Below are positions 2,070 to 18,287 of a stretch of DNA of 18,287 bases, in pieces. The DNA is from Desulfuromonadales bacterium C00003068. GTDB taxonomy: Bacteria; Desulfobacterota; Desulfuromonadia; Desulfuromonadales; Desulfuromonadaceae. The translations under genes and the position numbers were made by a program. The stretch spans positions 1-18,287 of the forward strand of contig MAXR01000461.1 in assembly GCA_001751155.1 (NCBI GenBank), in the 5' to 3' direction. Under the pieces are notes generated by a model. That model saw nothing but the letters and a program-made list of their open reading frames with translations. It ran no database searches and had not been told where the DNA came from. Each line of letters begins with the position of its first letter. Within the stretch, counting starts at the first letter, position 1.

Positions 2070-3455
2070 TTAATCGAGGTCGGTCAGTGCTTTGTCTAGT
2101 TGCTTTTTCTTGATTTTTTCTAAAAGTGTCGTCCGTTTTAAGTTGAGTAGTTCTGCAGCTTCTTTTTTGTTGCCACCTGTTTGAACGAGTGCTTGCAGGA
2201 TAAGTCGATCTTCAAACTCACTGACACGCGAATTGAAATCTGTGGCACCGCTTTCACTTATTAATCCCGCTGTCGTCTCTTCCTTTTGATGATACAGGTA
2301 CTTTTCGGGAAGGTCTTTAGGGTGGACAATCTCACCCATATGAAGAATGGAGAATCTTTGGACTAGGTTTTCAAGTTCACGAACATTGCCTGGCCAAGGA
2401 TAACGTGTGAGATAGATAAGCGTTTGATCTGAATACGTGAACACGTTTCGTCTTTTATTGGTGCAAAACCGTTGCGTGAACGTATCAAGCAACAGACTGA
2501 TGTCGCCGCCACGTTGACGTAGTGGTGGAATGTGCAACGGAATGACATTTAAACGATAGTAAAGGTCTTCTCTGAATGTCCCTTTGGCGACTGCTTCATC
2601 TAGGTTGCGGTGTGTGGCTGCAACGATGCGTACATCGACTTTAATGCTCCTAACGCTACCAACTGGTTCAAACTCTTTCTCTTGAATGACACGTAGAAGT
2701 TTGGCCTGTAAAGATGGCTTCATATCGCCAATTTCATCAAGAAAAAGGGTGCCTCCGTGAGCGTGCTGAATGCGTCCTTTTTTGTTGTTTATCGCACCGG
2801 TAAATGCCCCTTTTTCGTAGCCAAAAAGTTCGCTTTCAAGAAGTTCTTCAGGAATTGCGGCACAGTTGAGGGGGACAAAATTATTTTGTTGCCTTGGGCT
2901 GTGGGTATGCAGTGCTTTAGCGACAAGCTCTTTGCCTGTACCACTCTCACCTTGGATAAGGATCGTACTATCTCCATCATCACCTAAACGTTGAATCAGG
3001 TTAAATAATTGACACATTGATTCCGATTGGCCAATGATATTTAGAAAGCCGTTTTCACGTTGTGCTCGTGGTGTGGCGCGTTCTTGAGTGAGGTGTTGCT
3101 GAAGCGCACGGTGAGAAATTTGTGCAACTTCTTGCTGTGTGTAGGGCGCATGGAGGAAAAAGTGTGCCCCAGATTGAAGAATCGTTTTCGTTGATATCGT
3201 GGTGTCTTCAGGAACGAGAAGAACAGAAACAATTGGTGATAACGTTCTGTTTAACTCGATGAAAAAATCTAGGTTTTCATGCCCGTTTTGAGGGAGTTGG
3301 AAAAATAGTACTGAGCATGGATGTTGATCAAGAGCATCACGTGCTTGCTCAACAGTTGAAACCTCGATGATGTTTGTCGTGGTATCGTTATTGAGGTCGC
3401 TGGCAAGCTTGGTTCTGGTTGCATCATTACTGTCGAACAAAAGGATGTGTGACAC
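2070..3455 (-). CDS. Sigma-54-dependent activator, FleQ/FlrA-like, with a degenerate receiver domain
   Basis: 461 residues with a GTG start (3453-3455); a GGAAG stretch lies about 5 nt upstream. Residues 1-125 keep a receiver-like pattern, but the phosphorylation site is Gln53 (FFQLP), the usual Lys is His102 and the acidic pair is eroded, so it should not be phosphorylated. The central AAA+ domain (about 138-372) is complete: Walker A GESGTGKE at 169-176, sigma-54 contact loop GAFTGA at 216-221, Walker B with D240-E241, and WPGNVRELENL at 354-364. A Fis-type helix-turn-helix closes the protein (about 420-452). Intact GAFTGA shows it can engage sigma-54. A dead receiver beside flagellar and chemotaxis genes is the pattern of the flagellar master regulators FleQ and FlrA. 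It is the last gene of the che operon, 66 nt past the preceding stop. I infer it drives the two sigma-54 promoters near 13.4-13.7 kb. Activity is probably set by a partner protein or nucleotide rather than by a kinase. Confidence 0.85.
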   Translation of the reverse strand: MSHILLFDSNDATRTKLASDLNNDTTTNIIEVSTVEQARDALDQHPCSVLFFQLPQNGHENLDFFIELNRTLSPIVSVLLVPEDTTISTKTILQSGAHFFLHAPYTQQEVAQISHRALQQHLTQERATPRAQRENGFLNIIGQSESMCQLFNLIQRLGDDGDSTILIQGESGTGKELVAKALHTHSPRQQNNFVPLNCAAIPEELLESELFGYEKGAFTGAINNKKGRIQHAHGGTLFLDEIGDMKPSLQAKLLRVIQEKEFEPVGSVRSIKVDVRIVAATHRNLDEAVAKGTFREDLYYRLNVIPLHIPPLRQRGGDISLLLDTFTQRFCTNKRRNVFTYSDQTLIYLTRYPWPGNVRELENLVQRFSILHMGEIVHPKDLPEKYLYHQKEETTAGLISESGATDFNSRVSEFEDRLILQALVQTGGNKKEAAELLNLKRTTLLEKIKKKQLDKALTDLD

Positions 3456-3521: not shown

Positions 3522-5300
3522 CTAATGGCAAGTTGTTTTCAAATTTGTTTTTGCTTTTTCGCAGATTTCATCATTTGTGGCCGGAGTAAGGATAATATCT
3601 GTCGCACCATAGCGAACCGCCTTGATAACATCTGATCGAGTCCATTGGGGGCCAGCAACAATAAGAGGGCTACCTTGGGGAAGCTCAGAGCGTACTTTAA
3701 TGATGGCAGCAAATCCTTTTTCATTCATACCTTCGACGATAAGGAATGCGCCAGTTAAGCTGTATTGGCGGAGCTCGTTAAAATTCTCATTACTACTCAG
3801 TTCGATCGTTTGGTGTTCTGTGGTGCTAATGCTTTCACTAAAGTGTGTTCGCAGTGATTGGTCGTCACACACCACCGCAACGATAGGTGGCAAGGGTTGC
3901 TCGGCTGCTTTGTTCGCTACTTTGTCTGTCGCCACACTTGCCGTTTGAGTTGTTTTCCCTTCTACGGGTGAAGGAGTATCTGTATCAGTCGCAGGTGCTC
4001 CCCATCCTGTTTCGACAGGTCGTGGTACCATGTGTAGCAGGTCTACAGGGCAGATGAAGGATACCTCGCTCAAGTCACGGGCATCGCAACTTAGCGTTCC
4101 TGTTACGACATAATATTCACCAGCTGGAAAGGGTGTTGGATCTTCTACTTTGACCTTGGTTGGTGTGAAAAGTTCCTGTTCACCTTTTTTGAGATGAACT
4201 TTGCGTGGGTACATCTCATCAAAGTTTTGGACTAATCCACCACTAATAATGTTAGCAACTTCACCGAAAGCATCTGCTTCATCTTCACCATATTCACCCG
4301 CTTTGATATGGTTGGCGATCTCTTCAGCGGGTAACATGATCATGGTACCTGCAAAGAAAATCGCATCTTTTAAATCTGTTAAAAAGTATGCAGTTCCTTC
4401 ACTGTCACCACTGACCAACATCTCAGTTGAGATTGTTTTTTTCCCAGGTTTGGCAAAGAACTCTTTTTTACTGGTGTAACGCCCAGTGATCCCTTCAATT
4501 TCAAGCTCTATGCCAAGCATGCCGCCGATCTCTTCGGCGCACTGCATCATGGCAGCATTTATGACGCGGTTAACGACCTCTTGCTCGACACGGTCCTCTT
4601 CTGGCTCTTGTGGAGGTGTCTCGATCGCATCATCATTGGCAACAACCTCTTCGGGGGTGCTGTCAGGTACAGGCTCTTCTTGATGGACTGGTGGTGCTTC
4701 ATTTACAGGGGCGGCGACGGGTTCTGTTTTGGTTTCTTCGCCGAGAATACTTGCTGGAATGATGACCTCTAACTTATTCAGGTCAAATCCCTCAATCTTC
4801 ATGCTACAGCAACTGTATACGTATTCGTTAGGAGGAAAGGGGGTGTCGCTATTGGGGTCGATTTGGCTGGGAACAAAATCGTCAACGGACGTACGTTTAA
4901 AGTGGAGATTGTCAGGATACATGTCTAGAAAGACAGCAGTGTAAACTCCCGAAATGATATTGGCTACTTCACCGTATGCATCAGCAGCTTCACCATCGAA
5001 CGTTCTTAGTTTACAATTTTCCTCAATTTGTTCTTGAGGAAGCATAATCAATGTGCCGCCAAGAATAACCGAATCTTTTAGATCGGTAATGATGAATGAA
5101 TCACCACTTTTATCGCCTGAAACGACCATTGTCGACAGTACTGAACGCCCGCGACTTATTGCAAACAGAGAGTCTTTGTTCAGGACTTCAAGACAGTGAT
5201 CAGTTAACTCAATCGGCGCACCTAGAAGGGCACCAATCTCTTCTGAGAGTTGATCTAGTATTGTGTTGAAAACTTGTTCAACAACCGCTGATACTGCCAC
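3522..5300 (-). CDS. Tandem CheX/CheC-like double-domain protein with C-terminal pseudo-receiver
   Basis: 592 residues with a GTG start, 7 nt after the preceding stop; a TAGGT-like site overlaps that stop. It has three parts. Domain A (about 1-188) and domain B (about 237-425) are clearly related copies: both hold SGD-x(2 to 3)-G, a TDLKD strand, GGT/AGT-x-I-M-L-P, and GEVANIISG. Each keeps the D-x3-E-x2-N motif of CheC/CheX/FliY phosphatases (D107-E111-N114 and D343-E347-N350), but the Pro seen 22 residues after the Asn in the three small neighbours is missing; instead MYP places a Pro 15 residues after it. An acidic, Pro-rich linker joins the two copies. After a Ser/Thr-rich linker, residues 470-588 look like a receiver: D479-D480 acidic pair, but Glu523 where the phospho-Asp should be, Ala549 for Thr/Ser and Thr572 for Lys. 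That receiver should be inert or locked on. No membrane segment is seen, so it is probably cytosolic and may act on CheY-P at the motor or receptor array. The function is inferred; I know of no characterised protein with this architecture. Confidence 0.75.
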   Translation of the reverse strand: MAVSAVVEQVFNTILDQLSEEIGALLGAPIELTDHCLEVLNKDSLFAISRGRSVLSTMVVSGDKSGDSFIITDLKDSVILGGTLIMLPQEQIEENCKLRTFDGEAADAYGEVANIISGVYTAVFLDMYPDNLHFKRTSVDDFVPSQIDPNSDTPFPPNEYVYSCCSMKIEGFDLNKLEVIIPASILGEETKTEPVAAPVNEAPPVHQEEPVPDSTPEEVVANDDAIETPPQEPEEDRVEQEVVNRVINAAMMQCAEEIGGMLGIELEIEGITGRYTSKKEFFAKPGKKTISTEMLVSGDSEGTAYFLTDLKDAIFFAGTMIMLPAEEIANHIKAGEYGEDEADAFGEVANIISGGLVQNFDEMYPRKVHLKKGEQELFTPTKVKVEDPTPFPAGEYYVVTGTLSCDARDLSEVSFICPVDLLHMVPRPVETGWGAPATDTDTPSPVEGKTTQTASVATDKVANKAAEQPLPPIVAVVCDDQSLRTHFSESISTTEHQTIELSSNENFNELRQYSLTGAFLIVEGMNEKGFAAIIKVRSELPQGSPLIVAGPQWTRSDVIKAVRYGATDIILTPATNDEICEKAKTNLKTTCH

Positions 5301-5307
5301 AATGTAC

Positions 5308-5775
5308 CTACTTGGGTGCTTTTAGTTTAAGTTCGACGAGGAATTCACCTTCATCAAGATAGAATGGTACGGTGGTCCACATTGCATCGTCCATTCCGCT
5401 GATACGATAAGATCGCCCTGCTAATATAGTTGGAACTGCAAGGCTAATATCAATTCCTTCCTCGGTGAAGCCATCCTTGATGCCGCCAAGAATCATATTG
5501 GCCATTTCGCCAACGGTGTCTTTTACGTCGGCGTCGACTTCATCAACGTCAACCCCAAGCAACGCACTTGTGATCGCAAAGGCAACATCCTGAGGGCAAT
5601 GGATGGTTAACATCCCCTGAACCTCACCGGCAAAGCCTAGCATTCCAGAAATGCTGCTTTGAAAGTTATAAACTTTTTCTGAAAGTGAGATTCCCGGTGT
5701 TAATGGCATCATAAGCATGGTGTCAAAAAGCAACTGAGTACTGTCTATGATTTGTTGTTGAAGATCTATATTCAC
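5308..5775 (-). CDS. CheX-family chemotaxis phosphatase-like protein (second of an adjacent pair)
   Basis: 155 residues with a GTG start; GGAG lies about 8 nt upstream. It is a single CheX-like domain with the active-site helix D86-x3-E90-x2-N93 followed by Pro115, matching or nearly matching the (D/S)x3Ex2N...P signature of CheC/CheX phosphatases. In that family the Glu and Asn contact the phosphorylated Asp of CheY and speed its hydrolysis. It is clearly paralogous to the next gene upstream: both share an N-terminal helix, a V-x-x-F-x-x-S-x-S-G-x-x-G strand, a Q-G-M-L-x-I-H segment and the same motif spacing. This implies a local duplication. One catalytic-type domain is present, whereas CheC has two. 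No membrane or secretion signal is seen. The substrate is presumably one of the two CheY proteins of this operon. Confidence 0.8.
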   Translation of the reverse strand: MNIDLQQQIIDSTQLLFDTMLMMPLTPGISLSEKVYNFQSSISGMLGFAGEVQGMLTIHCPQDVAFAITSALLGVDVDEVDADVKDTVGEMANMILGGIKDGFTEEGIDISLAVPTILAGRSYRISGMDDAMWTTVPFYLDEGEFLVELKLKAPK

Positions 5776-5842: not shown

Positions 5843-6301
5843 CTACCCGTTTTTTATCTGTAATTCAACAAGAAATTTACCCGCATCAATTGTGAATGGA
5901 ACAACCACCCATTCTGCATCAGCAACACAGTCCATGCTGTATTCGTCGCCGTGAATGCATGAAGGGATAGAGATAGTGACATCTTTGCCCGCAGCATCGA
6001 GCACCATCTTGATGTTTCCTGCTAGCATATTGGCAAGTTCGCCGATGGCGTCAGTAACATCATCATCAACCTCTTCGACATCCATACCAAGAAAGCTACT
6101 GGTGATCGCTTTAGCAACAGAGTCCGGTGTATGGATAGCTAACATTCCTTGGCAGGTTCCGGCTAGGCCAATCACACCTGAAACTGAGCATTTGAAGCTT
6201 GTAACGCTTTCGGCAAGAGGGTCACCAGCGGTGATGTCAAGCATGATCATTGTTTCAAAAATCTCTTTGGTCGCCTCTTTGATGTTTTCCAATAGATCCA
6301 A
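5843..6301 (-). CDS. CheX-family chemotaxis phosphatase-like protein (first of an adjacent pair)
   Basis: 152 residues. The start is TTG at 6299-6301, chosen because a strong GGAGGG lies about 6 nt upstream and no in-frame ATG or GTG gives as good a fit. It is a single CheX-like domain: QGMLAIH at 51-57, then the catalytic-type helix D84-x3-E88-x2-N91 and Pro113. It is paralogous to the following 155-residue gene, from which it is separated by 67 nt with no terminator visible. It follows a 167-nt gap holding a strong hairpin, so this may be the first gene of a separately controlled distal block. The predicted role is dephosphorylation of CheY-P. Alternatives are a CheY-P sink or a CheD-binding adaptor as described for CheC. 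Confidence 0.8.
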   Translation of the reverse strand: MDLLENIKEATKEIFETMIMLDITAGDPLAESVTSFKCSVSGVIGLAGTCQGMLAIHTPDSVAKAITSSFLGMDVEEVDDDVTDAIGELANMLAGNIKMVLDAAGKDVTISIPSCIHGDEYSMDCVADAEWVVVPFTIDAGKFLVELQIKNG

Positions 6302-6468: not shown

Positions 6469-6840
6469 CTACATAATACCACTAATCACTTCATTGATTT
6501 TGTCTGGAGTAAATGGCTTTTTAATGTTTCCCGCAGCGCCGAGCTCTTTCGCTTCGCCAATAATATCTGCACCACCCTCAGTGGTAATCATGACAACTGG
6601 AATGTTCTTGATTCCGTCAATTTCCCTCTTTTGACGAAGGAACTCAATGCCGTCCATGTTTGGCATGTTGATGTCACTTAGGATAAGGTCAACATTCTCA
6701 TTTTCAAGAAGATTGAGAGCTTCCTGACCATCGGCTGCTTCAAGGATTTCATCAAAATCTAGGCCAGCTTGACGTAATGCTCGTGAAACAATTTTTCTCA
6801 TGGTGCTAGAATCATCAATGACAAGTACTCGTTTACCCAT
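6469..6840 (-). CDS. cheY: CheY-type single-domain response regulator
   Basis: 123 residues from ATG at 6838-6840. The open frame extends 6 codons further to a TTG, but AAAGGA sits 9-12 nt before the ATG, so the ATG is preferred. It is a complete receiver with nothing attached: acidic pair Asp9/Asp10, phosphorylation site Asp56 (ILSDINMP), Thr86/Thr87 in VVMITTE, and Lys108-Pro109. All switch residues are intact. The length and the SSTMRKIV segment are typical of CheY, the diffusible protein that takes phosphate from CheA and binds the flagellar switch. It is one of two such proteins in this operon. Either could be the motor-binding CheY, the other acting as a phosphate sink; the sequence alone does not decide. 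A CheX-like gene lies directly upstream. Confidence 0.9.
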   Translation of the reverse strand: MGKRVLVIDDSSTMRKIVSRALRQAGLDFDEILEAADGQEALNLLENENVDLILSDINMPNMDGIEFLRQKREIDGIKNIPVVMITTEGGADIIGEAKELGAAGNIKKPFTPDKINEVISGIM

Positions 6841-6871
6841 GGGGTTGGTTCCTTTCAATAATAACGTTAGA

Positions 6872-7351
6872 TTAGTTGTTCAATAGTGAATTAAGGTTAT
6901 CCATTTCAGCTGCTTTAATTTCAACTGAGAGAGGGAGATCTTCGGCTGTGTAGTTAAATTTAAATTCAGATGTACTTTCTTCACCGTCAGCTAGCTCGGG
7001 AATACTGAGGGAAAAGTCGGATTCTGGAGGAAGAATCTCGGTCATAAATCGTCCTGCTAGGGTATTCAGGATTTCAGCAAGAAGATCGTTAATGAGTTGA
7101 TCCTTCAACTCATCTCTATCCATGGTATACATGGTTTCGGCAATCTGGTAAAGCAATTCCTTAGATACGTCTAAGCGCATCTCTAAAAGTTCAGGTTCCG
7201 TGATTAGAAGGTTAACTCCGAGCATCTGCTGTTTAAGGTTTGTTGCTTCTTCAATGGTACATTCTTCGATGCTTACAAAGGCCATATTCTCGAGAGTTTC
7301 TTCGAGAACAGTAGTGGTCTTTTGATGGAGAAATGTTGTTAAGTCGTTCAT
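6872..7351 (-). CDS. CheX-family chemotaxis phosphatase-like protein, coupled to the upstream cheY-like gene
   Basis: 159 residues from ATG 7349-7351. Two in-frame ATGs lie further up (7360 and 7366), but they overlap the previous gene. The chosen ATG starts 1 nt after that gene's stop and has GAGG 9 nt before it, inside the last codons of the previous gene, which suggests translational coupling. The protein is a CheX/CheC-type domain: the helix D89-x3-E93-x2-N96 is followed by Pro118, the same spacing as in the 152- and 155-residue paralogues. Elsewhere it is quite different from those two, so it is an older branch of the family. Its position between two cheY genes fits a CheY-P phosphatase role (inference). 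Confidence 0.78.
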   Translation of the reverse strand: MNDLTTFLHQKTTTVLEETLENMAFVSIEECTIEEATNLKQQMLGVNLLITEPELLEMRLDVSKELLYQIAETMYTMDRDELKDQLINDLLAEILNTLAGRFMTEILPPESDFSLSIPELADGEESTSEFKFNYTAEDLPLSVEIKAAEMDNLNSLLNN

Positions 7352-7352
7352 G

Positions 7353-7736
7353 TTAACCATCCTCATTGTTGATTAATGGTGCAAGGGCTTCACTGAGCAT
7401 TGCTGGATTGATCGGCTTATTGAGGACGCCAAAAGCTCCCATTTTAAGAAGTTTGTCCGTTTTTGCCTGATTTCCAGCGCTTGTTATAATGAGCACGGGT
7501 AGGTCAACCAGTTTCGGGCTGGCTTTTACCCATCTAAGCAGTGATTCGCCATCCATTATTGGCATATTTAAATCGCTAATAAGGAGATCTGCTGGTTCTT
7601 GCTTAACCAGCTTTAGCCCTTCTTTGCCGTTTTCTGCTTCAGCAAATTCGGCATCAGCGAGACCAATAATCTCAAGGCAGCGACAAATCATCATTCGTGC
7701 GGTACCTGAATCATCTGCTATTACGATGCGTTTCAT
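7353..7736 (-). CDS. CheY-like single-domain response regulator
   Basis: 127 residues from ATG, with AAAGGA 6-9 nt upstream. It is a lone receiver with acidic pair Asp8/Asp9, phosphorylation site Asp55 (LLISDLNMP), Thr85-Ser86 and Lys107-Pro108, all present, so it should accept phosphate from CheA or another kinase. It differs substantially from the second CheY of the operon, for example in MMICRCLEIIG after the acidic pair, so the two are not a recent duplication. It lies 12 nt past the HDOD gene stop and is followed 1 nt later by a CheX-like gene, forming a regulator/phosphatase pair. Which of the two CheY proteins turns the motor is not visible. Confidence 0.88.
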   Translation of the reverse strand: MKRIVIADDSGTARMMICRCLEIIGLADAEFAEAENGKEGLKLVKQEPADLLISDLNMPIMDGESLLRWVKASPKLVDLPVLIITSAGNQAKTDKLLKMGAFGVLNKPINPAMLSEALAPLINNEDG

Positions 7737-7748
7737 TTGGTGTCCTTT

Positions 7749-8612
7749 CTATGTGTCCGTCATGGCATTATGCATGGTGCCGAATGTCTCGTTGACTTCC
7801 AGCATAACAAGTGCCAGTTGTTCTGATGTTAGGTCAATAAAGTTAATGTAATTTTGGTCTAAATGGTATTGCAATGAATCTGAAGATTGACTGCCACACA
7901 TCATGGCGACAATGCAGCCAAGGTGGACAGCGTAAGCAAGATGCTGATATTCAGGTGGTGCTTCAGCTGGGCGATGGTGATAACGGATCGCACATTGTAG
8001 TGATTCAGGTAGCTCCCAGTTTCTTGCCAGTTCATATCCTGCTTCAGTGTGATCTATGCCAAGAATCTCTCGTTCTCCAGCAAGGTAGTCGGTGACTTCG
8101 TGGCCATCAATGCTGGTCAAAACATCATTCGCAGTTTGCTGTAAAAAATCAGATAAAACCGCTTTGCCGACCGCATGAAGAATTCCTGCTGTAAATGCTA
8201 AGTCTGGGCTAAGCGGTTGTTTTGACTGCTTTGCAATCTCTCTTGCTGCGATAGCCGTTCTAAGATCGTGGTTCCATAATTCACTTTTGGGGCCATCGTA
8301 GCCTTCTAGTTCCTTATGGAAAAGGGCTGAAGCGCTATCGCCAAGAGCAATCCCTGCTACCATCCGCTCGCCAAGGTAGCCAACAGCACGTTCAATGGTT
8401 GTTACTTCATGAACTAAGCCGTAGGCAACAGAGTTGACTATTTTCAGTACCCGAGCGGTGAGTGCCGCATCGCACTTTACAATATCAACGACTTCACTGA
8501 TGTCGTGATCAGAGTTTGCTGAAAGTTGCAGCAGCTGTGAGGCGCTTGGTGAAAGTAGGGGCACCTCTTTGATCGCTGCAATAATCTCTTCTTTGCTGGC
8601 TCGTTGTTTCAT
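7749..8612 (-). CDS. HDOD-domain signalling protein
   Basis: 287 residues from ATG 8610-8612, chosen because GAGGG lies about 7 nt upstream. The open frame runs 40 codons further up, but that part overlaps cheD and reads as its shadow. Most of the protein is an HDOD domain, starting with VPLLSPSASQLLQLS at 17-31, then the V-x-K-C-D-x-A-L-T-A-R-V-L-K-I-V-N-S helix typical of the family. HDOD is a relative of HD phosphohydrolases that has usually lost the metal-binding His-Asp pair. Here the equivalent site reads H146-A147-V-G-K, so no nuclease or phosphodiesterase activity is expected. HDOD proteins occur often in chemotaxis and c-di-GMP operons as scaffolds, but their exact role is poorly known. 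It sits 16 nt past cheD and is tightly packed in the operon. Confidence 0.85.
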   Translation of the reverse strand: MKQRASKEEIIAAIKEVPLLSPSASQLLQLSANSDHDISEVVDIVKCDAALTARVLKIVNSVAYGLVHEVTTIERAVGYLGERMVAGIALGDSASALFHKELEGYDGPKSELWNHDLRTAIAAREIAKQSKQPLSPDLAFTAGILHAVGKAVLSDFLQQTANDVLTSIDGHEVTDYLAGEREILGIDHTEAGYELARNWELPESLQCAIRYHHRPAEAPPEYQHLAYAVHLGCIVAMMCGSQSSDSLQYHLDQNYINFIDLTSEQLALVMLEVNETFGTMHNAMTDT

Positions 8613-8628
8613 CGTGATCCCTCTTATG

Positions 8629-16192: not shown

Positions 16193-16603
16193 ATGATAGG
16201 CAATGGTTTTGTTGATAAAACGGCTTTATTGCTAAAGAAATCACTTGATTTGCGCATGCAAAATCAACAAGTGATTGCTGGTAATGTTGCCAATGCACAG
16301 ACTCCTGGTTATAAAGCTCAGCGACTTGAGTTTGAAGGTGCATTACGCCAAGCCGTTGAGGGCCGCGGACAGGATGTTACCGTGACTCATCCGCAACATA
16401 TTTCGACTCATGGTGGATCTATTGGCCGAGTTGAAGCGACTGTGTCCGAAGTTGGTGGCGGTGGTGGTCTTGGTGATGGAAACACCGTGAGTGTTGATCA
16501 AGAGATGATTCTGTTAGCCCAAAATCAAATTATGTATGAGGCTTCGGCACAACTTCTAAGTAAAAAAATGAGTATTATAAAATACGTTGTTCAGGGCAAT
16601 TAA
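16193..16603 (+). CDS. flgB: Flagellar proximal rod protein FlgB
   Basis: 136 residues. An AAAGGGAT site lies about 6 nt before ATG. The N-terminal rod signature NVANAQTPGYKAQRL (about 31-45) and the C-terminal helix with SAQLLSKKMSIIKYVV are characteristic; a Gly-rich loop lies near residues 88-96. FlgB is among the first rod subunits placed on the MS ring together with FliE, exported by the flagellar type III apparatus without a cleaved signal. The order flgB-flgC-fliE-fliF is the usual one. Confidence 0.95.
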   Translation: MIGNGFVDKTALLLKKSLDLRMQNQQVIAGNVANAQTPGYKAQRLEFEGALRQAVEGRGQDVTVTHPQHISTHGGSIGRVEATVSEVGGGGGLGDGNTVSVDQEMILLAQNQIMYEASAQLLSKKMSIIKYVVQGN

Positions 16604-16615
16604 GGGGGCCAATAG

Positions 16616-17047
16616 ATGGGGATTTTCACGTCATTGAATATTAGTGCTTCGGCACTACAGGCCCAGCGAACGCGGCTTGATACCATTAGTTCTAATATGG
16701 CAAATGCTGAAACAACTCGCACCCCTGAGGGTGGACCATATAAGCGTAAAATGGTGGTATTCGAGAGTCAACAAATGTCCTTTGCCGAGCACTTGTCAAG
16801 TCGCTCCAATAAGGCGATTAATGGGGTGCGCGTCAGTCGGATTGCTGTCGATCAGCGTGAGCCAAAGTTGGTTTACGATCCGCAACATCCCGATGCTGAT
16901 GATCGGGGATACGTGTCGATGCCTGATATTGATATCCTGAAAGAAACCACCGATATGATGATGGCAACACGAGCCTATGAGGCAAACATTACCACTATTA
17001 AATCTGCCAAGCGGATGGCATTAAAAGCGTTGGAAATTGGGAAGTAG
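16616..17047 (+). CDS. flgC: Flagellar proximal rod protein FlgC
   Basis: 143 residues, 12 nt after flgB, with AAGGGGG about 8 nt before ATG. The N-terminal SALQAQRTRLDTISSNMANA (about 11-30) and the C-terminal TDMMMATRAYEANITTIK (about 111-128) helices are the paired ends that form the rod coiled coil. The length is typical. It polymerises next to FlgB in the proximal rod. Confidence 0.96.
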   Translation: MGIFTSLNISASALQAQRTRLDTISSNMANAETTRTPEGGPYKRKMVVFESQQMSFAEHLSSRSNKAINGVRVSRIAVDQREPKLVYDPQHPDADDRGYVSMPDIDILKETTDMMMATRAYEANITTIKSAKRMALKALEIGK

Positions 17048-17060
17048 AAAGGGGTAATCC

Positions 17061-17354
17061 ATGTCTGATATTTCAATAGATAGTCATCTTAAATCAATGA
17101 TGTCCTCGTTTGGCCAAGCTCAACCACCAACAGAAACTAATTTTGGTGATATGTTGACGCAGGCCATTTCAGAAACCAATGAAGCTCAACTTAACGCTGA
17201 TCAAGCAGCTACAGATTTGAGTACAGGACGTTCTGATAATCTCCATGAGGTGATGCTTGCAATGGAAGAAGCGGATATCTCAATGCGGATGCTGGTTCAG
17301 ATGCGAAATAAAGTTGTTGATGCATACCAAGAAATCATTCGAATGCAGGTGTGA
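17061..17354 (+). CDS. fliE: Flagellar hook-basal body protein FliE
   Basis: 97 residues, 13 nt after flgC, with AAAGGGG about 6 nt before ATG. The C-terminal half holds the family signature: ATDLSTGRSDNLHEVMLAM at about 53-71 followed by ADISMRMLVQMRNKVVDAYQ at about 74-93. FliE joins the MS ring to the rod and is an early export substrate. The ~69 nt that follow before fliF hold no terminator that I can see. Confidence 0.95.
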   Translation: MSDISIDSHLKSMMSSFGQAQPPTETNFGDMLTQAISETNEAQLNADQAATDLSTGRSDNLHEVMLAMEEADISMRMLVQMRNKVVDAYQEIIRMQV

Positions 17355-17423
17355 TGTGTGTTCGGTTTGTTTTGTTGTAATTATAGTAAACTGTAATGTG
17401 TGCTGGCGGGGATAAGGGGAGCC

Positions 17424-18287
17424 ATGGCTGAGTTAGAAAAAGGAAATATTCTTACCGTTTTGAGTGGTTGGCCGCTGTCGCGAAAAATCAGCCTTGCAGC
17501 GGTAGCCCTTTTTTCGTTGACCTTGTTTGCGTTGATTATTTTGCAGACACGACAATCTGATTACCAATTGTTGTTCGCAAATTTGCCACAGGGCGATGCC
17601 TCGTCGATCGTTGTCTGGTTAAAAGATAAAAAAATCCCTTACGAAATCGAAGGCGGCGGTAGTAGCATCTATGTCCCTGCAGATAAGGTGTATGAAACAC
17701 GGCTAGAACTTGCTGGATCAGGATTGCCACAAGGTGGTGGTGTTGGTTTTGAAATTTTCGATAAACAGAGTCTTGGAATTACTGATTTTGTGCAAAAGGT
17801 AAATTATTTAAGGGCGATGCAGGGGGAGCTTTCCCGCACGATCGCATCACTGTCACCTGTCGCTGCGGCCCGGGTGCATCTTGCCCTACCGCAAAAGAGA
17901 TTATTTAAGAGTCAGCAACAGGCTGTTACTGCATCTGTCATTATTAAATTAATGGCGGGAACAAATTTACGGGATTCACAAGTTCAGGGCATTGTAAATC
18001 TTGTCTCGGGTAGTGTTGAAGGTTTAGAGCCTGAACATGTCAATGTTGTCAATTCCTTGGGGAAAGTACTGTCTAAGCGCCCAGAGCAGGGATTAAGTGG
18101 ACCCATGACACCTGGAATGCTTGAGTACCAACAAGCTGTAGAGCGACAGATGGAACGTCGCGCTCAGGATATGCTTGATCGTGCGCTCGGTGTTTCGAAT
18201 TCATTGGTTAAAGTTACCGCAGTCCTTGATTTTGCTCAGGTTGAAAAGTTGGAAGAGTTGTACGATCCTAACAGTGCTGTGCCGAGA
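17424..18287 (+). CDS. fliF: Flagellar MS-ring protein FliF (5' part, runs off the window)
   Basis: 288 codons are present with no stop. ATG 17424 has AAGGGGA about 3-5 nt upstream. A cytoplasmic N-terminus (1-20) is followed by one transmembrane helix (about 22-41) and then the periplasmic ring-building region with YQLLFANL, VPADKVYETRLELAGSGLPQGGGVGFEIFD and VNYLRAMQGELSRTIASL, VAAARVHLALPQ. These are the conserved FliF segments. The remainder (second transmembrane helix and the FliG-binding tail) should follow beyond 18287, probably with fliG and fliH. Confidence 0.96.
   Translation, partial: MAELEKGNILTVLSGWPLSRKISLAAVALFSLTLFALIILQTRQSDYQLLFANLPQGDASSIVVWLKDKKIPYEIEGGGSSIYVPADKVYETRLELAGSGLPQGGGVGFEIFDKQSLGITDFVQKVNYLRAMQGELSRTIASLSPVAAARVHLALPQKRLFKSQQQAVTASVIIKLMAGTNLRDSQVQGIVNLVSGSVEGLEPEHVNVVNSLGKVLSKRPEQGLSGPMTPGMLEYQQAVERQMERRAQDMLDRALGVSNSLVKVTAVLDFAQVEKLEELYDPNSAVPR

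Follow-up and report, generated by a model that had tools for sequence, protein, structure and literature searches.

Termination of the chemotaxis signal at the flagellar motor is best known from bacteria with CheZ or FliY. In Thermotoga and Bacillus, FliY joins a CheC-like phosphatase to a FliN/SpoA domain, and CheC carries two E-x2-N half-sites, the first of which is also found in FliY; CheX (PF13690) has one E-x2-N site per domain. The CheC-family domain of FliY has been tied to the flagellum in the available part of PMC6946799. A CheY-like domain joined to another Che domain is also found in CheV4 of Vibrio cholerae, a protein that touches motility; a study of the polar motility regulator MotV looked at the phosphorylation residues of the CheV4 receiver (available text of PMC8789113). 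CheV4 is a CheW-CheY hybrid without a phosphatase domain. For Desulfuromonas sp. AOP6, a flagellum-adjacent cluster (AOP6_0888-0878) with cheA, cheW, cheB, cheR, cheC, cheD, and cheX was called a unique type in the accessible text of PMC8235581. Here, we describe a gene on an 18,287-nucleotide stretch of Desulfuromonadales bacterium C00003068 (contig MAXR01000461.1, hereafter the window) that encodes two tandem phosphatase-like domains followed by a receiver fold lacking the receiver chemistry (pseudo-receiver).

Compared with FliY, the protein has no SpoA/FliN domain but has a pseudo-receiver and two tandem phosphatase domains. Unlike CheC with its two half-sites, it has one conserved E-x2-N site per domain and a fused receiver fold. 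The domain resembles CheX in its single site; however, it is longer (N-x29-P, versus about x21 in the CheX of the operon), tandem, and receiver-fused. The che cluster of the window and AOP6_0888-0878 are probably of the same type. The main text of PMC8235581 contains none of the terms "receiver domain," "FliM," "FliY," and "tandem," and so gives no description of the fusion under these terms. A survey of Geobacter chemotaxis reported one cheX per genome and, in its accessible part, did not describe the fusion (PMC2577667), and no account of a CheX-pseudo-receiver fusion was found in the open-access literature. Thus, the protein, of CheC/CheX/FliY type with two tandem sites and a dead receiver, is apparently undescribed. 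Its identity and its link to the flagellum can be stated with high confidence. Its interpretation as a flagellum-dedicated phosphatase of phosphorylated CheY (CheY-P), in which the pseudo-receiver would be a fixed docking module, possibly at the motor switch, is evenly balanced against the alternatives weighed below. The features of the gene, all on the minus strand, are as follows.

3522..5300, minus: whole gene, 592 residues, GTG start at 5300 and stop at 3522-3524, with orthologues found
4731..5300, minus: D1 (residues 1-190), first CheC/CheX/FliY-superfamily domain, from its identity to D2 and the conservation of D1 columns
4959..4982, minus: predicted catalytic motif of D1, D107-x3-E111-x2-N114, conserved across the family domains
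4593..4730, minus: acidic, proline-rich linker (residues 191-236), with low predicted local distance difference test (pLDDT) scores and a length that differs among homologues
4026..4592, minus: D2 (residues 237-425), second phosphatase-like domain, with the modelled fold and length of the FliM middle domain, FliY, and CheC
4251..4274, minus: predicted catalytic motif of D2, D343-x3-E347-x2-N350, conserved in the domain alignment
3894..4025, minus: linker (residues 426-469), pLDDT under 50 over most of its length
3525..3893, minus: pseudo-receiver (residues 470-592), a (beta-alpha)5 fold in the profile alignment and structure models
3738..3740, minus: Ile521, opposite the CheY phospho-Asp in the Protein Data Bank (PDB) profile alignment; V23 I10 G5 L3 A3 T2 S1 among 47 pseudo-receivers
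3732..3734, minus: Glu523, not conserved (Glu in 8 of 47)
3582..3653, minus: beta4-alpha4-beta5 block (residues 550-573), from column conservation over the 47 pseudo-receivers
3636-3644, minus: W553-T554-R555 within this block (W 47/47, T 47/47, R 46/47)

The open reading frame is genuine, as orthologues with 59-93% identity were found in all nine other genomes of the genus that were searched, three of which are assembled in one or two contigs; this rules out a chance frame or an assembly artefact.

The reading of two related CheX/CheC-like domains, each with an intact D-x3-E-x2-N motif, was borne out: the second copy shares 36% identity with residues 6-186. Among 47 readable proteins, the E and N of E-x2-N were kept in 76 of 78 domains and were invariant in the 76 aligned rows; these counts are without the fragment L045, and L060 is outside the aligned rows but inside the 78. 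Each domain has one D/S-x3-E-x2-N site, as in CheX, and the first half-site of CheC and FliY is not conserved (columns 245 and 248 vary over the 76 domain rows). The D2 model, in which most ten-residue blocks had a pLDDT of 70-89, matched the FliM middle domain, FliY, and CheC, with Foldseek E values of 3.7e-11 for FliY (the best match), 5.6e-10 for CheC, 1.6e-8 for C-ring FliM, and 4.6e-8 for CheX; the fold is that of the CheC/FliY/CheX phosphatase superfamily. CheX was not among the 50 VIA entries listed for the structure model, which excludes nothing.

At the sequence level, the nearest profile of the four sets compared was that of the operon's own CheX (E 9e-9 against 36 CheX rows from the loci), whereas the domain was weakly CheC/FliY-like (E 0.004-0.006) and the FliM probability was under 3%; one of these comparisons used 17 domain rows. 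The full chain scored 26.9 bits against Pfam CheX, just below the gathering cut-off of 27, with the second copy as the region seen, and 15 of 17 separate domains matched PF13690 at E up to 0.1 (best 0.00045). No NCBIfam model reached its cut-off for the window protein, and no SpoA/FliN domain (PF01052) was found in it up to E 1. Because the fold is that of FliM-middle/FliY/CheC, the sequence is near CheX, and one site is conserved, we preferred the superfamily label over CheX: judged by alignments and models, the domain is a CheC/CheX/FliY-superfamily member with one apparently live site and not CheX proper. Phosphatase activity of the twin-domain protein is thus predicted to be likely.

Residues 470-592 form a (beta-alpha)5 receiver fold, as first supposed, in both the alignments and the models, and lack the phospho-Asp, acidic pair, Thr/Ser, and Lys of receiver chemistry. 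Recognition by sequence was weak: the isolated C-terminus scored 14.6 bits against Response_reg (cut-off 30.2), Pfam listed no receiver on the full chain up to E 1, and the best E of a single-sequence PDB search was 0.15. The original prediction had placed Glu523 at the phospho-Asp position and proposed that it mimics phosphorylation. The CheY phospho-Asp instead fell on Ile521 (profile alignment, Helicobacter pylori CheY), Gly524 (MAFFT), or a gap after Phe519 (hhalign), and never on 523, which varied freely among the 47 pseudo-receivers (E8 R8 K7 S5 D5 N4 A4 T2 G2 Q1 L1). A phosphomimetic Glu was rejected on both grounds. The supposed loss of the switch Thr and of Lys held (Thr/Ser column G39 A7 S1; Lys column T36 K6 I2 M2 S1), although the Thr position had been assigned to Ala549 and falls on Gly550 in the profile alignment. 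With no conserved acceptor, Lys, or Thr and a variable position 523, the family alignment shows a domain that is neither switched nor phosphomimetic. The tally is without L020, whose C-terminus departs from the family frame, and the sets of 47 pseudo-receivers and 47 readable phosphatase proteins differ by one member each. This orthologue (L020/L047, genome G012) leaves the frame inside the pseudo-receiver, probably through a frame break.

Conservation of the pseudo-receiver is concentrated in the beta4-alpha4-beta5 block, where Y564 (46/47), G565 (47/47), D568 (45/47), and P573 (47/47) accompany W553-T554-R555. It was low in beta1 (0.45), alpha1 (0.32), and alpha2 (0.38) and middling in beta3 (0.58). 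On alpha5, K582 was kept in 45 of 47. The FliM peptide occupies a groove of CheY helices alpha4 and alpha5 (PMC9126983, in the text available).

The protein is tightly linked to flagella. FliM (PF02154) and the protein were found in the identical 36 of 58 relatives, and families f5, f7, and f8 each include members with the pair and members without it. In 117 genomes of the class, with up to 17 candidates per genome scored, the protein was found in 86 of 87 genomes with FliM and in none of 30 without it; some genomes, such as G486 and G501 (in which a contig end truncates the gene), passed E 1e-12 by the phosphatase part only. A scan of 395 genomes of the phylum, in which up to 10 candidates per genome were scored, gave at least 20 host genomes, all with FliM. 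Seven of its 27 matches (L068-L074) were dropped as ordinary receivers. No FliY, and no second protein of FliY size, was present in the 15 host genomes tested, each with two PF01052 genes corresponding to FliM and a short FliN. Viral contigs scanned with the pseudo-receiver alignment gave no relative.

The FliM docking motif EIDALL has been termed present in all motile bacteria (PMC9126983, available part). The usual host peptide was EIAELL, and the Asp of EIDALL was altered in 29 of 30 host FliMs (Ala 21, Ser 3, Gly 1, Glu 4, Asp 1), whereas it was Asp in 28 and Asn in 2 of 30 same-phylum FliMs from non-hosts, defined as genomes with no match among the up to 10 candidates scored. The FliM of the window genome is split over two contigs and is outside the 30. 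Host FliMs (L095-L114, L121, L123, L125, L126, L128-L133) scored about 89-183 bits against PF02154, versus often over 200 in the phylum, and their match begins later in the profile; the whole host FliM is therefore divergent.

The family has two layouts: 31 of the 47 readable proteins have two phosphatase domains and the receiver fold, and 16 have one domain and the receiver fold. The phylum scan added one-domain forms in f22 and f24 of the same class, families that we take to be Geobacter-like, and two-domain forms in f38 and f121. The architecture sought in other genomes is widespread, with some 90 orthologues found in all. In a domain tree of 60 rows (10 loci, mostly near-copies, and L060 were left out), the D1 copies were not a clade (p of the approximately unbiased test 5.6e-7), and the well supported branches require five changes or more. 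This points to tandem duplication on several occasions or to gene conversion homogenising the copies. A joined phosphatase pair seems to be favoured under either history, and tandem copies in one chain would allow a covalent pair, the functional unit of CheX being a homodimer.

The gene lies in a che operon, of which the following genes adjoin it or stand close by.

6469..6858, minus: CheY of the operon, its Asp, Lys, and Thr all present in the alignment; a homologue adjoins the gene in 23 of 23 loci
5843..6301, minus: stand-alone CheX, a constant neighbour (Pfam CheX, 93 bits)
5308..5775, minus: second stand-alone CheX, directly upstream of the gene (Pfam CheX, 83 bits)

The minus-strand row reads CheA-like (13370), CheR, CheB, CheD, HDOD-like, CheY, CheX, CheY, CheX, CheX, the twin-phosphatase gene, and a sigma-54 activator, and frames on the opposite strand (16193-18287) read as flgB, flgC, fliE, and fliF; the flagellar, HDOD, and CheA/R/B/D names are presumptive, given from the translations. 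Judged by which window protein each gene matched best, CheY and CheX homologues are directly upstream of the gene in all 23 loci, the sigma-54 activator adjoins it in 21, and cheA-cheR-cheB-cheD is upstream in 17. A third stand-alone CheX (6872-7366, minus) is more divergent (Pfam 42 bits); 14 bases at its start are shared with the end of the cheY upstream of it (7353-7736). The HDOD-like gene (7749-8615, minus) has a homologue at the same place in 17 of 23 loci, with an NCBIfam HDIG match slightly below the cut-off. The sigma-54 activator (2070-3455, minus) also has a degenerate N-terminal receiver (Response_reg E 0.031) whose acceptor site lacks Asp. Its relatives differ: several have the acceptor Asp but no Lys, and among the 19 aligned, 5 have lost most or all of the receiver; two further relatives could not be cut out for alignment. 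At the window's edge, a substrate-binding-like fragment (3-338, plus) is followed 10 bases on by a frame with PAS-like, kinase, and receiver parts (349-1764, plus), and the two may be one gene that a stop or a change of frame has divided.

The simplest account is that the protein fills a FliY-like role by a different route, using the alpha4-beta5 part of the CheY output face. The acidic/amide helix of each domain (E111/N114 and E347/N350) would enter the phosphorylated operon CheY, the likely substrate, and speed its hydrolysis as in CheX, CheC, and FliY, going by motif and fold. The pseudo-receiver would be a receiver fold put to use beyond phosphorylation, as a fixed adaptor, in which W553, T554, R555, Y564, and D568 may form a constant protein-binding face near the CheY output-binding site. 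It would anchor the phosphatase to a component of the flagellum, most likely FliM with its altered N-terminal peptide. Docking at the flagellar switch is put forward tentatively, as less likely than not. For the earlier suggestion that the protein is held where CheY binds the motor, there is circumstantial evidence (co-occurrence with FliM, flagellar context, lack of FliY, the altered peptide, and the beta4-alpha4-beta5 block), with alpha5 not in its favour. The fuller version, in which the rewritten EIAELL peptide, the lack of FliY, and a permanent CheY look-alike holding the twin phosphatase on the switch are class-wide, is more doubtful still.

Several observations weigh against this docked phosphatase. 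Conservation of alpha5, the other wall of the FliM groove of CheY, is modest (0.48), which, by alignment, makes it less likely that the CheY-FliM contact is copied in full. No model placed the pseudo-receiver on any partner. The operon already holds three stand-alone CheX proteins. Both exceptions to E-x2-N are in one protein, L060, in which Asn is gone from both motifs. One genome with FliM in the class set (G507) lacks the protein, also with a nearer query. In the phylum, hosts account for at least 20 of 240 genomes with FliM and most of the others have no detected copy, so flagella in general do not need the protein. One host FliM (G412) keeps EIDALL, and in a FastTree phylogeny of FliM, taken without its support values, the host proteins make up one side of a split, so the altered peptide represents one or a few events and is not independent proof; it may simply have been co-inherited with the gene. 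As separate observations, L060 (genome G109) retains WTR in its pseudo-receiver and is possibly a catalytically dead variant that arose in nature, as would agree with docking, and G507 is in 420 contigs while its genus-mates G464, G477, and G486 have the protein, so that its absence is perhaps an assembly gap.

The pseudo-receiver could instead act on its own chain, as a decoy CheY sitting in or near the E-x2-N sites until displaced by CheY-P. Such self-gating, part of the original prediction, gained no direct support, and we consider it unlikely. The members read join phosphatase domains to a receiver fold, and the invariant WTR is found on the beta4-alpha4 loop, bordering the face of CheY approached by CheC-type phosphatases; however, this loop is the only part of the active-site end that is conserved, the other parts being low to middling, and the same single pseudo-receiver occurs in two-site and one-site forms. 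Structure prediction gave usable domains: the full-chain model (4-row alignment) had a pLDDT of 46 and a predicted template modelling (pTM) score of 0.29 and was good in the pseudo-receiver only, and a model of D2 and the pseudo-receiver (16 rows, without CheY rows, which misaligned over the phosphatase part) reached 72 and 0.49, with a relative placement of domains that is not trustworthy in either. Pairing of two chains through the alpha4-beta5-alpha5 face, giving a multivalent phosphatase, is comparably improbable. Many response regulators pair through this face, and conservation is centred on alpha4-beta5, with K582 on alpha5. CheX acts as a homodimer (PMC8235581, accessible text), but the phosphatase domain is already doubled in many lineages, apparently several times, making receiver pairing redundant; modest alpha5 conservation also argues against pairing, which leaves the Trp at the head of alpha4 unexplained.

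Two further readings are very unlikely. The short CheA of E. coli keeps CheZ at the receptor-kinase array, and the alpha4-beta5-alpha5 face of CheY also binds CheA-P2, so the pseudo-receiver might hold the phosphatase at the array by binding some Che protein, such as a CheA P2-like domain, as the frequent upstream cheA-cheR-cheB-cheD would suit. Yet 4 of the 23 loci (L089, L090, L093, and L094) have no cheA-like gene in the stretch fetched, L091/L092 have a weakly CheA-like gene only, and the gene and FliM are absent together. A non-enzymatic C-ring accessory, with tandem FliM-middle-like domains added to the switch ring, would agree with the D2 fold, but the E-x2-N motif is kept almost throughout the family and the profile is near CheX and not FliM. 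Moreover, in the alignment to FliY, the family reads LP-x-x-E at the position equivalent to the GGxG loop with which FliM binds FliG, and no such loop appears there; PF01052 is confined to FliM and the short FliN in the hosts tested.

Sediment and metal-reducing bacteria, namely Desulfuromonas and, by layout, Geobacter-like relatives, thus have in common a flagellum-linked protein, and the docking peptide of their FliM departs from a motif said to be universal among motile bacteria. Docking at the switch, if true, would make the pseudo-receiver a clear case of a receiver turned into a simple adaptor, and W553-T554-R555 versus the FliM peptide would offer a concrete handle on CheY-P removal at these motors. 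Were such motor docking class-wide, the signal would be destroyed where it is read.
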